This document shows, piece by piece, positions 8,873 through 63,220 of a DNA stretch of 64,000 nucleotides; within the stretch, counting starts at the first letter, position 1, and each line of letters opens with the position of its first letter. The translations under genes and the position numbers were made by a program. The notes beneath the pieces were generated by a model. It saw only the letters and a program-made list of their open reading frames with translations, did not search any database and was not told where the DNA came from. This DNA is from Bacteroidales bacterium (GTDB lineage Bacteria > Bacteroidota > Bacteroidia > Bacteroidales > Paludibacteraceae): positions 1 through 64,000 of the forward strand of contig SUXC01000009.1 of the NCBI GenBank assembly GCA_015061165.1, read 5' to 3'.

Positions 8873-9100
8873 GCGAGGAGGCGATAAGGCGAGGAGGTGA
8901 GAGGCTCAGATAAGAAAAATGTGACAGTGAGACACTGAGACAGTAAAATTTAAAAAGTATATACACGTGTGTATAATATGTATATAGTTTTAGAAATGCA
9001 CTGTCTCAGTGTCTCAGTGTCTCACTGTCTCAGTGTCAGTCACACTCTTGAAAACCAAAAATAGGCTATCCACCGCTTATCCACCGCTTATCCACCCGAT
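8873..9100. repeat. Intergenic block of three simple-repeat word families
   Basis: The 409-bp gap after the giant gene contains three things. There is a GGCGAGGAGG-type word (8873-8905). There is a 19-bp perfect inverted repeat, GACAGTGAGACACTGAGAC at 8923-8941 against its complement at 9011-9029, inside a longer CTCAGTGT tract. There is a CCACCGCTTATCCACCGCTT tandem (9070-9098). The inverted repeat could act as a weak terminator, but it has no clear T-run and a 69-nt loop. The rest of the gap up to the promoter at 9171 shows nothing else. Confidence 0.75.
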
Positions 9101-27353: not shown

Positions 27354-27974
27354 TTATTTATGTAATTTTGTAGGATCGTATTTGCTTAAAATACCAGAAC
27401 TGCCATCTTTTAGCAATCCACCATCTACAATAGTATAAATATCGCCGTTGGAAACAAATATCTTATTTGTGTCAATATAGGTATAGGTGTAATAGTTCCA
27501 AGAACCAGTAGTAACATATTCCATATTCCCGAAAATAGGTCCTGCATAAAATTTATAAATTGGCTCGCCATTACCACGACCTTCTATATGTAAAAAACAC
27601 GAAGATTCCTGTATTGCGATGGTGTTTTTGTCAATAATATGAATAACAGGACAGAGGCTATACTTATTCTTATTTAAAAGGTAAAATCTAAAGCGACCAT
27701 GATGCTGCTCTGTTTCGCTCCAACCACCATCTCCACCTATGAATAAATCATATGTTGCATAGTAATAATCATCTTCACCCAAGCGATGATCGAATACATA
27801 CAACAATTCATTGTTGTTAATAGCTTCATTAATTTCGTTAAAATCAGAAGCCTTGGCAGCAGCACTCAAATCAGTGTAATAGCCAGTTAATCCTTTCCCT
27901 AAGCCGTCATTTTCGCAACTTGAGAACATGAACATAGAGCATAGTAGTAGCCCTAAAAATAGATTTTTTTTCAT
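27354..27974 (-). CDS. Lipoprotein of unknown function
   Basis: 206 residues from the ATG at 27974. A reading that begins at 28169 would run through the conserved leader RNA and is rejected. The signal peptide ends in a lipobox, FSSC (Cys about residue 19). The mature part is rich in Tyr, Asp and Gly and probably beta-stranded (YYYATYDLFIGGDGGW, GNMEYVTTGSWNYYTYTYID). I do not recognise the family. It is the first gene behind leader RNA L1 and lies 20 bp upstream of the BspA-type gene, so the two products may work together at the surface. Confidence 0.75.
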   Translation of the reverse strand: MKKNLFLGLLLCSMFMFSSCENDGLGKGLTGYYTDLSAAAKASDFNEINEAINNNELLYVFDHRLGEDDYYYATYDLFIGGDGGWSETEQHHGRFRFYLLNKNKYSLCPVIHIIDKNTIAIQESSCFLHIEGRGNGEPIYKFYAGPIFGNMEYVTTGSWNYYTYTYIDTNKIFVSNGDIYTIVDGGLLKDGSSGILSKYDPTKLHK

Positions 27975-30571: not shown

Positions 30572-30605
30572 TCGGGTGGATAAGCGGTGGATAAGCGGTG
30601 GATAC
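30572..30605. repeat. GGTGGATAAGC tandem word
   Basis: GGTGGATAAGC occurs three times in a row, the last imperfect (GGTGGATACC). The reverse complement of the same word lies at about 9067-9098. Confidence 0.8.
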
Positions 30606-55574: not shown

Positions 55575-55618
55575 TGTGATACCAACCACTGAAAATGCCC
55601 TTTGCGGGAGAAGGTACT

Positions 55619-55716
55619 AACCACTGAAAAGCACGGACAGACACGGACAAACAGAGTTATGTATCCTATGTTCTGTGTTGTTCAGTGAATTTCAGTGGTC
55701 AATATATTACACCACG
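55619..55716. repeat. CACGGA/CACTGAA inverted repeat element, copy 3
   Basis: AACCACTGAAAAGCACGGAC at the left and TTCAGTGAATTTCAGTGGTC at the right, about 98 bp in all. The ends are inverted repeats. It is repeated with about 90 percent identity 128 bp further on. A broken third copy (AACCACTGAAAATGCC) precedes it at 55583. Confidence 0.85.
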
Positions 55717-55746
55717 GAAGGTTATCTTTAAGAGGAAGAAGATACC

Positions 55747-55845
55747 AACCACTGACAAGCACGGACATGCACGGAAAAACAGAGTTATGTGTCCTATGTT
55801 CTGTGTTGTTCAGTGAATTTCAGTGGTCAATACATTACACCACGA
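55747..55845. repeat. CACGGA/CACTGAA inverted repeat element, copy 4
   Basis: The same unit as 55619-55716, shifted by 128 bp. It ends two bases before the tRNA-Pro gene. Relatives lie at 194-314 and 357-440. Confidence 0.85.
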
Positions 55846-55847
55846 TA

Positions 55848-55920
55848 CGAGGAGTAGCGCAGTTGGTAGCGCACCACGTTCGGGACGTGGGGGTCGGGCG
55901 TTCGAGTCGCCTCTCCTCGA
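55848..55920 (+). tRNA. tRNA-Pro (anticodon CGG)
   Basis: Acceptor CGAGGAG/CTCCTCG with discriminator A and the C1-G72 pair typical of bacterial tRNA-Pro. D-arm GCGC-AGTTGGTA-GCGC; anticodon arm CCACG-TTCGGGA-CGTGG giving CGG; T-arm GGGCG-TTCGAGT-CGCCT. CCA is not encoded. It is followed directly by a terminator. Confidence 0.98.
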
Positions 55921-59100: not shown

Positions 59101-60074
59101 TGTACAGTATTAGGAAGAACAATAGATATAAGAGATTTACAGTTTTGAAAAACCAACTCTCCAAAACTTGTTACGCTATTGCCAATAATGGCAGAGGTGA
59201 GGGATGAGCAATATTGGAAAGCACCATATCCGATACTTGTTACACTGTTGGGAATAGTGATGGAGGTGAGGGAAGAGCAATTCTCGAATGTATAAACTTC
59301 TATATTTGTTACTCCTTCTGGAATGTTGATTGAGGTGAGGAAAGAGCAAGAAGAGAAAGCTCCTGATCCAATACTTGTTACGCTATTGGGAATAGTAATG
59401 GAGGTAAGGGCAGAACAACCAGAAAAAGCATACTCTCCAATGCTCGTGACACCATTAGGGATGGTGACGGAAGTGAGGGAAGAGCAATCTTTGAAAGTAC
59501 CGCCTGCAATTAATCGGGTGTTCTCTTTAATTACATATATACCAGAAATAGCATCTTTTGCATCTATAAGGCAATTATCAATGTACAATACTTCGTTTTC
59601 CCAATTCGATTCATTGTTATAAATGCCTGTACCAGAGAATGCATCACTTCCAATACTCGTTACGTTGTCAGGGATGGTAATGGAGGTAAGGGAAGAACAA
59701 CCAGAGAAAGTCCCAGCTTCAATACTCGTTACGCTGTTGGGAATAGTAATGGAGGTGAGGGCAGAGCAAGAAGAGAAAGCCATTGCTCCAATGTTTGTTA
59801 CACTTTCAGGGATGGTGACGGAGGTAAGTTTTGAGCAAGAAGAGAAAGCATGACCATCAATACTCGTTACACTATAGGTAATGCCGTTGTAAGTGACGGT
59901 AGAGGGTATGGTAACAATTGTAAAACCAACGTAGTTGTAGGCACTCGTAACCTCCGCTGTATAAGGTTCGGAACTGCTGGTGATATTGTAATAGAGATCA
60001 CCCGAGTAGAAACCATCAGCCCAGAGGGTAGATGTGGCAAAAATTGCCACAATAAATAGAAAAAGTTTTTTCAT
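56178..60074 (-). CDS. BspA-type leucine-rich repeat (LRR_5) surface protein, 1298 aa
   Basis: Signal peptide (KKLFLFIVAIFATSTLWA), then about 25 LRR_5 repeats of the type SLTSITIPNSVTSIGEYAFS up to about residue 850. Next come InlB-B-like modules (about 865-925, GYEFVQWSDGV; about 1205-1260, GYRFVHWSNEV), a CGDNLYWKHYDD LRR segment (about 930-1025) and a fibronectin-III-like module (about 1060-1190) that is homologous to that of the 793-aa protein. It ends with SSVEN and the CQKIIHDNQLLILRDGKTYN module. The linker is encoded by a CCAATCGCCAAT repeat word at 56258-56286. Likely an adhesin exposed on the cell surface. It lies directly behind leader RNA L2. Confidence 0.92.
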   Translation of the reverse strand: MKKLFLFIVAIFATSTLWADGFYSGDLYYNITSSSEPYTAEVTSAYNYVGFTIVTIPSTVTYNGITYSVTSIDGHAFSSCSKLTSVTIPESVTNIGAMAFSSCSALTSITIPNSVTSIEAGTFSGCSSLTSITIPDNVTSIGSDAFSGTGIYNNESNWENEVLYIDNCLIDAKDAISGIYVIKENTRLIAGGTFKDCSSLTSVTIPNGVTSIGEYAFSGCSALTSITIPNSVTSIGSGAFSSCSFLTSINIPEGVTNIEVYTFENCSSLTSITIPNSVTSIGYGAFQYCSSLTSAIIGNSVTSFGELVFQNCKSLISIVLPNTVQTIGGGLFSGCEALTSVVLPENLDSLLTERRYHLGFFENCNSLSSITLPKYLITIGDHAFYNCSSLTSIVIPNSVTSIGDAAFYDCSKLTSVTIPNSVMSIGCYAFDGTPWYANLSDGLIYIGQVLYTYKGNMPANTSIDVKEGTTAISPKAFSTRSSLVAITLPESLITIGYNAFSDCSSLTAITLPESLITIEDYAFSDCSLLTAITLPKRLNSVGCYAFKSCHSLTSVTWNVKNHLDSYSSYNTPFCDISSQITSFILGDSVQNIPAYLCCKMDKLTSVTIPNSVTSIGEYAFSGCTSLTSIAIPCNVTSVAQTSFDDCSSLLSVAWNAKTSIDYNKSPFDSSKSTLKSITFGDSVEYIPGYISCSIDSLTTVIIGKNVLTIGEHAFDDCSFLTSITIPNSVTSIGIAAFEDCSLLDLLTIGNSMKIIERYAFSGCSSLSSVSIPNSVTSIGASAFSFCDSLSCVVIGSGVTIIGEKAFNDCPIDTVYSRNPTPPQLGRNAFISKPVCYVPCGATSSYQNTLWKNYMGKFTEGNLYSLTTNVSDTTAGRIELIEEQKCDNATFQAIPNVGYEFVQWSDGVTDALRTLDLTQDTTLIAEFRQLFDGKCGDNLYWKHYDDKIIIHGEGAMYDYAADSVPWYQFRDIVKTVEVFDGATSIGNNAFTLCKNLNTLTLSGTIENIGENAFGGCRMLFDIYCYILFPPIASENSFINYNAYLYILCDYQRYYAADMVFGNFRNMQCIGTQSTPTDGMVITPSFNDVTITWPTVANAGSYTLTINKDGEAFCTLIFNAAGQLTGIAFAPSRNGQRHAPAATQAANGFTFTVTGLEEGTDYSYNLVIKDNSGKTLQTYSGEFRTQSTNDRTVTVEYDAIQGQVTGAGIYLVGDTVTLTAIPNDGYRFVHWSNEVEDNPYTFVISENMTLSAEFESVIPSSVENTHTQSPMTNCQKIIHDNQLLILRDGKTYNVMGVIVE

Positions 60075-60136: not shown

Positions 60137-60486
60137 CAAAAAGCGCAGACCTCGAGTTGTTTATTCGTAACTCGAGGCCTTCGCATGCCCATCAAATCAA
60201 ACAAACAACAGGAAACCTACGCTGATATGACAACATGCTACGCCCTGAATACAAGCATAGTATGGATATAGTCATACCCATAGGCATTTACTGTTACTTT
60301 GGTTTTGATTTGATTGAAAAGTTGCGAAGTTTTCGAGTCACAAACGCAAAGCGTCAAGGAAATTCCATCACGCAAGCGAGATAGAAACCTTGTCAATAAA
60401 CGCTATTCAATATGTCAGAAACCTACCCAAGAAAGACCCATTGCGAAACGCTTTTCGCAGGACATATTTCCCTCCAGCGTAGGAAT
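60137..60486 (-). ncRNA. Structured leader RNA L2 (candidate regulatory RNA)
   Basis: About 350 nt on the minus strand between the promoter at 60491-60499 and the BspA gene. Helices: AATATGTC/GACATATT (60461-60468 with 60409-60416), an inner TGCGAAA/TTTCGCA hairpin, GCGTTTATTG/CAGTAAATGC (60394-60403 with 60284-60293), and a 3' stem CCTCGAGTT/AACTCGAGG (60069-offset pair at 60050-60077 is not meant; the arms are 60150-60158 and 60169-60177) followed by TCTGCGCTTTTT. Blocks and order match L1 at 28031-28298. After the T-run about 63 nt remain before the ATG at 60074. Confidence 0.65.
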
Positions 60487-60910: not shown

Positions 60911-63220
60911 CTACTGCGGATCGACATCGATGCTCACGACCGTGCCCTTGCAGTCCGATTGCTGCATGACCGCGCGGATACGTTCACGTAGCATCTGTTT
61001 GGCACGCTGCACATTCGCTCCCTGCTCCACACGCAAACGCAACTGGCGGATATGCTGATTCTGACGGCGAGCCACCAAGGGCGTAATCACACCCGATACA
61101 CGCTCGCCAAACACAGTACGCAACGCCTGCCTCAGCACCTCACTACTCCTCTCCAAACGCTGCATATCACGATGGCGCAAACTGAGCACAATCAGCCGAT
61201 GAAATGGGGGAAAACAGAACATTTCGCGCTCACTAAACTGCTGCTCATACAAGCCCCGATAATCATGCTTCGACAAGAGAGCAAACAGCGGATTCTTCGT
61301 ATCAAAGGTCTGTATCATCACCTCGCCCGCACTGCCCGTGCGACCTGCACGACCCGCCACTTGCTCCAACATCTGAAAAGCATGCTCCGCACTGCGAAAA
61401 TCGGGCTGATTCACCAGACTATCTGCCTGCAACACCACCACCAACGACACATCATCAAAATGCAAACCCTTAGTGACCATCTGCGTACCAATCAATATAT
61501 CCACCTCATGCCGTGCGAAACGGTCAATAATCTGCTGATAACCCTCCTTACGGCGCGTAGTATCCAAATCCATACGCGCTACACGTGCCTGAGGGAACAG
61601 CGACTGTATCTCCTCCTCCAATCGCTCGGTACCTACCCCATGCAGTTTCCATGGTGTACCACATTGGGGGCAATGGGCGATTGGCGATTGGCAATTGGCG
61701 ATTGGCGATTGGCAATTGGCGATTGGAGATTGGGTATAACCGCAACTGTGGCAGACGAGGGTATTATTGCTCTTGTGATAGGTCAAACTGACATCGCAGT
61801 TCGGGCACTTAGGCACCTCGCCGCAGTTGGGGCATTGCAAAAAAGGCGCATAACCCCTACGATTTTGAAACAAGATTACCTGCTTGCCACGCGCCAGTTC
61901 CTCGCGCATACGGAACACCACAGGGTCGGCAAAATGGCCGTACATCTCTTTTCGATGATACTGCCGTTGCAAGTCCACCAACGTGATTTTCGGCAATTGC
62001 AGTCCACGAAAACGCTCCGTCATCTCCACCAATCCATATTTCCCCGCCAGCGCATTGTGATACGATTCCACGCTTGGGGTAGCCGTACCCAACAACACGT
62101 TCGCGCCATACCAACGCGACATCATCACCGCCACCGAACGGGCATGATAACGCGGAGCAGGGTCTTGCTGCTTATAACTGGGTTCATGCTCTTCATCCAC
62201 AATCACCAGACCCAAATTGGAGAAAGGCAAGAAGATAGCAGAGCGAGCACCAAGAATGAGGCGAGAAGGCGAAGAGGCGATAGGCGATAGGCTAGAATAT
62301 ATCTCCACCCGTTCATCGTGGCTAAAACGCGAATGATAGACCACCACTTGCTCCCCGAACACCGATTGCAGGCGGTCGGTCAGTTGGGTCGTCAGCGCAA
62401 TCTCAGGCACCAGATACAGTACCTGTTTGCCCCTCTGGAGCATCTGCTGAATCAGGTGAATATACACCTCTGTCTTGCCACTGGATGTTACACCATGCAA
62501 CAGCGTTACAGACTTGTCCTGCCACACACGGTGAATCTGCTCAATAGCCCGTTGCTGTTGTGCATCCAAGGCATGAGGCTCGCGGGTATCCCCCGCATAT
62601 TGTCGCAAACGCGATATAGGACGTTCCTGCTCGCAGAATATCCCCTTGTCAATCATTGTCCGCAGCACTGCACTACCGACCCCACTTGCCTCCAATAACG
62701 CACGCCTCTCCACAGGCATTGAGTAATCAGCCTCCCGACTCCCGAATCCCGAATCCCGACTCATGGTCAAAAACGTCTCCAACAACTTTTGCTGCGACTT
62801 GGCACGGCTGAGCAGACTGAGCGTCAGCTCCTGCTGGCGAGGGTCTAAATGCGTGGGGTTCAACTGGATATACTGCGTCGTGAGTGCCTTATAATCATCA
62901 TCAATAATCCCCGAAGGCAGAGCAGCCGACATCACCTCGCCCAATGTACACATATAATAGTCCGCCATCCATTCCCACAGGAGCAACTGCTCTTTCGTCA
63001 GGATAGGCTGCTCATCCAACACATCCAACACATCGCGCACCTTCACCGTGGCAGGTAAATCGCCCTGATGCCTGCGATAGACCACACCCGTAATCGTTTT
63101 CCTACCTAAAGGCACCAATACCCGCACTCCAATGGGCGGGTATTGCATAGTGGCAGGGACGCTATAGGTATAAACATCCGATATTGCCAACGGCAGAATA
63201 ATATCTACTAATCGATTCAA
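60911..63220 (-). CDS. priA: Primosomal helicase PriA with three repeat-encoded insertions
   Basis: 769 residues. PriA restarts stalled replication forks. N-terminal DNA-binding part (about 1-190), Walker A in LLHGVTSSGKTEVYIHLIQQ, DEEH box in LVIVDEEHEPSYKQQDP, zinc-binding cysteines in CPNCGEVPKCPNCD, CHSCGY and CPQCG, then KLHGVGTERLEEEI and QMVTKGLHFDDVSLVVVL. Three places carry low-complexity stretches encoded by repeat words: RDSGFGSREAD (62731-62762), SSLSPIASSPSR (62259-62292) and QSPIANCQSPIANCQSPIA (61671-61734). The last lies between the CHSCGY and CPQCG pairs. All keep the frame and all key motifs are present, so the protein is probably functional. Confidence 0.95.
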   Translation of the reverse strand: MNRLVDIILPLAISDVYTYSVPATMQYPPIGVRVLVPLGRKTITGVVYRRHQGDLPATVKVRDVLDVLDEQPILTKEQLLLWEWMADYYMCTLGEVMSAALPSGIIDDDYKALTTQYIQLNPTHLDPRQQELTLSLLSRAKSQQKLLETFLTMSRDSGFGSREADYSMPVERRALLEASGVGSAVLRTMIDKGIFCEQERPISRLRQYAGDTREPHALDAQQQRAIEQIHRVWQDKSVTLLHGVTSSGKTEVYIHLIQQMLQRGKQVLYLVPEIALTTQLTDRLQSVFGEQVVVYHSRFSHDERVEIYSSLSPIASSPSRLILGARSAIFLPFSNLGLVIVDEEHEPSYKQQDPAPRYHARSVAVMMSRWYGANVLLGTATPSVESYHNALAGKYGLVEMTERFRGLQLPKITLVDLQRQYHRKEMYGHFADPVVFRMREELARGKQVILFQNRRGYAPFLQCPNCGEVPKCPNCDVSLTYHKSNNTLVCHSCGYTQSPIANCQSPIANCQSPIAHCPQCGTPWKLHGVGTERLEEEIQSLFPQARVARMDLDTTRRKEGYQQIIDRFARHEVDILIGTQMVTKGLHFDDVSLVVVLQADSLVNQPDFRSAEHAFQMLEQVAGRAGRTGSAGEVMIQTFDTKNPLFALLSKHDYRGLYEQQFSEREMFCFPPFHRLIVLSLRHRDMQRLERSSEVLRQALRTVFGERVSGVITPLVARRQNQHIRQLRLRVEQGANVQRAKQMLRERIRAVMQQSDCKGTVVSIDVDPQ

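Follow-up and report, generated by a model that had tools for sequence, protein, structure and literature searches.

A conserved, pseudoknotted leader RNA with a terminator-like stem, possibly a transcription attenuator, upstream of BspA-type and other secreted-protein genes in Bacteroidales

The window analyzed here, a stretch of 64,000 nucleotides, is a 64-kb part of a 2.47-Mb Bacteroidales genome, which its relatives place in the Paludibacteraceae and which is distributed over 32 contigs. Between a priA-like reading frame (60911-63220) and the gene of a 1298-aa BspA-type leucine-rich repeat (LRR) protein it carries the leader RNA L2, preceded by a predicted promoter (Table 1). Folded as a single strand, L2 reaches -130.2 kcal/mol, against -93.5 +/- 4.7 kcal/mol for shuffled sequences (z -7.9; 0 of 100 shuffles as stable). 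A second copy in the window, L1, aligns with L2 along its entire length and is matched by two covariance models (E 3e-17 and 1e-12, E-values of these custom models being rough); the 271-aa frame behind it probably has its real start at 27971 (MKKNLFLGLLL). An earlier note on this DNA had given the sizes of the two leaders as 350 nt and about 267-268 nt, which the alignment bears out, and the CCTCGAGTT/AACTCGAGG arms, then TCTGCGCTTTTT, and the 63-nt gap between the T-run and the ATG at 60074 are likewise present as described there. The same note placed the extra sequence of L2 between the central helices; L2 is indeed the longer copy, but the difference comes mainly from about 38 nt inserted into the H3 hairpin loop, together with a longer 5' domain. 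Three repeats were also seen in the window: a run of the 7-base unit GGCGATT inside the priA-like frame (61669-61733), a 128-base direct repeat (1.8 copies, 92% alike; 55609-55844) directly before a tRNA gene at 55848, and an 11-base tandem repeat, TATCCACCGCT / GGTGGATAAGC, at two intergenic sites in opposite orientation (9067-9096 and 30575-30604).

Table 1. Features of the leader RNA L2 and its surroundings in the window, with the second copy L1. Percentages are pairs formed among the copies counted.
Feature	Position	Strand	Basis or remark
Predicted promoter	60524-60493	minus	TTTG (60524-60521) and Bacteroidetes-type -7 box TAATTTTG (60500-60493); sequence
Leader RNA L2	60486-60137	minus	350 nt, predicted start to T-run; homologous copies, covariation, fold z-score
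Segment A CCTACGCTG, 5' strand of P1	60483-60475	minus	Complementary to segment B; P1 90.8% paired in 104 copies
5' hairpin AATATGTC / GACATATT	60468-60409	minus	Sequence; seen by eye in L2 and L159-L161, uncounted
Hairpin H3, GCGT..ACGC	60403-60345	minus	99.3% paired; L2-specific loop insert of about 38 nt at 60392-60355 (alignment)
H4, 5' strand GTGACTCG	60341-60334	minus	Partner 60174-60167; double changes at all 7 counted pairs
Loop CTTCGCA	60329-60323	minus	Loop-loop contact with TGCGAAG (60185-60179); 97.2% paired, double changes at 4 pairs
H7, 5' strand ATCAAATCAAA	60314-60304	minus	Partner 60201-60191; double changes at 8 of 10 pairs
Joining segment CAAAGTAACAGTAAATGCC	60301-60283	minus	Highly conserved order-wide; candidate binding site
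H8 GGTATGAC / GTCATATC	60278-60224	minus	Strands 60278-60271 and 60231-60224; 99.4% paired; apical stem variable
Segment B AGCGTAGGTTTC, 5' strand of H10	60223-60212	minus	H10 99.4% paired; also pairs with segment A
H9, 5' strand GTTGTTTGTT	60209-60200	minus	Partner AATAAACAAC; 98.2% paired, double changes order-wide; pseudoknot with H7 and H4
H7, 3' strand TTTGATTTGAT	60201-60191	minus	Named-helix counts
H6 hairpin GGC..GCC, TGCGAAG in loop	60189-60174	minus	97.1% paired, C-G/U-A changes
H4, 3' strand CGAGTTAC	60174-60167	minus	Part of the left terminator arm of the earlier note
H9, 3' strand AATAAACAAC	60165-60156	minus	Named-helix counts, order-wide changes
Segment C GAGGTCTGCGCT, 3' strand of H10	60153-60142	minus	Pairing probability in the 3' fragment (see text)
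T-run after the stem	60143-60137	minus	77 of 80 diverse copies have four or more T among the last five bases
BspA-type LRR protein gene, 1298 aa	56178-60074	minus	PF13306, E 8e-213
Leader RNA L1	28302-28035 (approximate)	minus	Precedes the 271-aa reading frame, then the 793-aa BspA gene

The leader is far more widespread than the two copies reported earlier, with about 24 in the genome of the window and hundreds across the order. Plain BLASTN with L2 found one other good copy in its own genome (C26:54594-54907). Of 61 genomes searched, 21 had copies, the own genome counted, and these 21 belong to a single genus, which suggested a genus-restricted element, a view that was overturned by covariance models. 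The first of these (R1), representing the 3' half of the leader, recovered L1 and gave about 20 matches in the own genome, and matched 253 of 358 genomes of the family and 39 of 204 genera of the order; the second (R2), built from 80 diverse copies, gave 24 matches at E < 1e-3 in the own genome and matched 96 of the 374 Bacteroidales genomes sampled, with 53 of 199 genera represented. Across the class Bacteroidia, R2 matched 12 of 396 genomes, every one of them Bacteroidales, and the zero matches in sampled genomes of the other orders also serve as a good control for false hits. Low-scoring calls on the opposite strand over real copies, which come from near-palindromic stems, were disregarded. 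A pattern scan of named genomes returned at least 118 stretches, almost all of them carrying the label Paludibacteraceae or uncultured Bacteroidales and many from ruminant or horse gut; the genomes near that of the window include metagenome-assembled ones. One Bacteroidales leader (L123) sits in a bin labelled Holosporaceae (an alphaproteobacterium), probably a binning error. Six copies of the own genome (L174, L175, L242, L245, L246, L248) form a divergent subfamily with GACATATTTAATATAGCGTTATAAGC, often intergenic and lacking a clear promoter.

In the own genome and its close relatives, 130 of 132 scorable copies are followed by a gene in the same orientation (median gap, 92 nt), as are 43 of 43 across the order, where three others had no called gene; the element is thus a leader, and one common to unlinked operons, as the earlier note had supposed. 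A promoter box is a recurrent companion: 109 of 124 copies have TANNTTTG in the 112 nt before them, against 9.9 in shuffles. The suggested link to surface genes also holds, secreted and lipoprotein genes being over-represented: by simple heuristics for gene calls and a crude rule for signal peptides, 84 of 131 downstream genes begin in a signal-peptide-like manner, the background figure being 194 of 539 (p 7e-9). In the own genome, the leader stands before the first or second gene in five of about ten BspA loci, namely those of L1 and L2 (C32), C23:222656, C19:73310 and C19:106003. Downstream families assigned across the copies include BspA LRR, CsgG-like, PEGA, VWA, SPFH, sigma-70 region 4 and NusG-like proteins; no single pathway is common to them, and this mixture therefore gives no clue to a ligand. 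Among individual cases, L193, L208, L212, L221 and L222 precede small HTH proteins that share an EQGRTVTWFA-like motif and are sometimes missed by the simple gene caller, and the NusG-family genes directly behind L199 and L213 are possibly autoregulated antiterminators. Three paralogous operons of the own genome (L167, L169, L170; MKKTIILA.MALAIVAVPA.AQTRKERKAAEK) have each kept the leader, as if leader and gene had duplicated together.

The fold was assessed in 104 non-redundant full-length copies by counting named helices pair by pair. A ten-helix structure with a loop-loop contact and a pseudoknot is 95.4% paired in this set, with double changes at 29 of 62 pairs. Double-change cells number 520, where 500 shuffles give 164.7 +/- 12.5; when the partners are slid as a control, pairing falls to 37-46%. 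RNAalifold, run without pseudoknots, gave a poor consensus and was replaced by these counts and by an unbiased mutual-information scan of 126 close copies (effective number, 113), which ranked the long-range helices at the top and independently picked H4, H7, the loop-loop contact, H6 and H8. The fold is well supported on this evidence, and it amounts to a conserved, covarying domain of the kind expected of a riboswitch. Between its helices, a joining segment resembling GCAACGGTAGATG (at least 10 of 13 positions matched) occurs in 28 of 39 order-level copies, against 1 of 39 when shuffled, and is the best candidate for a binding site.

The 3' end carries a conserved terminator-like stem, also well supported, formed by H10 together with H9 inside the pseudoknot; both helices show G-C/A-U exchanges in 80 order-wide copies. 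This is a stable stem with a T-run immediately after it, as in an intrinsic terminator, and in some copies the run has 3-4 T only. The earlier note had proposed a conditional terminator in the 3' hairpin of L2, and a terminator-like stem with a T-run does exist there, but it is located elsewhere: the CCTCGAGTT/AACTCGAGG pairing is formed in 87% of close copies, three of its seven positions show mismatches in 19-41 of the 104, and at least one fifth of close copies have some mismatch. As a conserved pairing it does not stand, its 3' strand pairing with segment B and CGAGTTAC with the far-upstream GTGACTCG. In the 3' fragment of L2, under a model that excludes pseudoknots, the mean pairing probability is 0.96 for segment C in H10 and 0.003 for the hairpin of the earlier note, which together with the mismatches rules out the latter as the conserved form.

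Segment B, which reads AGCGTAGGTTTC in L2 and GGCGTGGGCTTC in most of the order, has a second partner in segment A. When each divergent copy's own segments were compared with swapped ones, 0 of 10000 permutations matched the complementarity of A:B and 0 of 10000 that of B:C, against 9690 of 10000 for the control of A against C. About 10% of close copies lack the A:B helix P1 or form it poorly, and it is strong in only 21 of 56 divergent ones. Segment C, in turn, is complementary to segment D, the loop of a small hairpin between the T-run and the start codon, with examples such as AGTATCCC with GGGATACT, GATTCCC with GGGAATC and GGCTCC with GGAGCC (own versus swapped, 0 of 20000). The D hairpin (GGGAATC and variants) occurs in L181, L188, L206, L212, L216, L221 and L225 and, in the own genome, in L158, L165, L166 and L168; it is absent from L2, though present in many order-level and some own-genome copies. 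Collectively, the A:B, B:C and C:D complementarities form a series like that of a trp attenuator, in which B:C is the form before the T-run. Mutually exclusive pairings thus lie beside the terminator-like stem, as in the expression platform of a riboswitch, P1 being absent in a minority of copies.

Sequence comparison across the copies supports the family, its leader position, the helices, the stem with its T-run and the alternative pairings. On this basis L2 is, with moderate confidence, a riboswitch-like, cis-acting transcription attenuator of the BspA mRNA and a member of a Bacteroidales-wide family. The predicted promoter would start the transcript near 60486, and the RNA would form a compact domain with its long-range helices, loop-loop contact and pseudoknot. 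If segment B pairs with segment A at the 5' end, the terminator would stay unformed and the gene would be on; if B pairs with segment C instead, B:C and H9 would make up the stem directly before the T-run and transcription would end. In many relatives, loop D, downstream of the T-run, matches C, and their pairing would keep the RNA in the read-through state (A:B plus C:D). A cellular signal stabilizing one of the folds would then set the expression of surface and secreted genes jointly. We infer that transcription ends at the stem, that the alternative pairings exchange with one another and that the response has the sign given here; the driving signal would most likely be a small molecule that binds the conserved joining segments. 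For L2 itself, start site, termination and switching are predictions.

The leader is apparently undescribed. With Rfam 15, the window gave no match at the gathering threshold, and in eleven loci with copies the leader stayed unmatched up to E 1; a chance hit of 18 bits to the fluoride family (cut-off 34, E 0.87), on the minus strand of L156, falls outside the conserved core. Rfam DUF805b motifs were seen close to two leader-bearing loci (L014:282-316, minus strand; L159:2830-2864, plus strand). No description of such a leader was found in the open-licence PubMed Central literature. It would work like an attenuator or a riboswitch, and is assigned to no named class. Riboswitches of the c-di-GMP GEMM class act through intrinsic terminators and serve many extracellular genes; the likeness lies in a 5' leader whose folded domain shares a strand with the terminator and which occurs many times in a genome before diverse secreted-protein genes, whereas the present leader has no Rfam similarity, is about three times larger and was found here in Bacteroidales only. 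The trp-type attenuator has four alternating segments, and the A:B, B:C, C:D scheme, with the terminator among the alternatives, resembles it; however, the leader has no evident conserved leader peptide (on an informal look, match lengths across its ATG-containing part differ by numbers that are not multiples of three), possesses pseudoknots and a loop-loop contact, and has D beyond the T-run. The multi-copy FopS/GibS family of Bacteroides comprises short, trans-acting sRNAs, FopS having a single-stranded 5' region and a lone terminator hairpin (PMC11697453). Our leader is likewise a multi-copy Bacteroidales RNA with a terminator hairpin, but FopS/GibS RNAs act in trans and L2 has no Rfam match; an sRNA of this type working with RbpB was rejected on the same-strand genes (130:2) and on the lack of an RRM_1 match in the own genome. 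A survey of 104 RNAs described Bacteroidales motifs that are mostly in Rfam, among them Bacteroidales-1, Bacteroides-1 and Bacteroid-trp (PMC2864571), structured RNAs of the same bacterial group that none of the eleven loci match.

Instead of a small molecule, a protein could read the signal: a paralog of NusG (UpxY/RfaH/LoaP type), or some other factor that binds RNA, would use the leader as a platform and carry RNA polymerase past the stem. NusG paralogs act in the leaders of Bacteroides capsule operons, and those antitermination leaders resemble ours in being long and in preceding surface-related Bacteroidales operons. Moreover, two order-level copies (L199, L213) directly precede NusG-family genes, judged by their own sequences and two PF02357 matches. 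However, only one NusG-domain gene (197 aa) accompanies the roughly 24 leaders of the own genome, the sole match in a search for a dedicated paralog, and a search there for an RbpB-like RRM protein gave no RRM_1 match; both partners were therefore rejected for this genome, and a protein platform seems unlikely, although a general factor or some other protein may serve. Somewhat less likely again is a static leader whose fold shields the 5' end of the mRNA or fixes the fraction of read-through, with no regulated switch. A conserved fold and a T-run would be expected here too, the downstream functions are mixed, and much of the covariation would also be seen in a very stable leader that does not switch; against it, the mutually exclusive partners of B and C covary, and the joining segments are conserved order-wide far beyond the needs of a plain stabilizer. 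A stand-alone gene for a trans-acting small RNA would explain the flanking promoter box and terminator and the several copies per genome, but in 173 of 175 scorable cases a gene of the same strand follows after a short gap, which is unexpected for a trans-acting RNA; as the main role this is largely refuted and very improbable, although the released leader could act in trans as a by-product. The many copies at unlinked sites might also recall a repeat or mobile element dispersed near genes, a reading that is scarcely credible and is refuted by homology that spans transcription start to T-run, by gene orientation and RNA covariation, and by viral contigs free of a short exact pattern and plasmids and phages free of matches to one diverged copy.

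The riboswitch-like attenuator is thus the reading we prefer. A bolder version of it, which we put forward tentatively and hold to be possible rather than probable, is that the family represents a new class of pseudoknotted Bacteroidales riboswitch of at least 270 nt, with its own terminator, that senses a signal molecule and, in each cell, coordinates some two dozen operons for surface and secreted proteins through alternating A:B, B:C and C:D pairings. The size of the leader and its pseudoknotted terminator would make it an unusual test case for RNA folding that controls transcription, and the family supplies a regulon, a fold model and clear mutants to test. Bacteroidales are abundant in gut and rumen, and little is known of their regulation at the RNA level; if true, the proposal would add a level of global control over what they display to their host and community.
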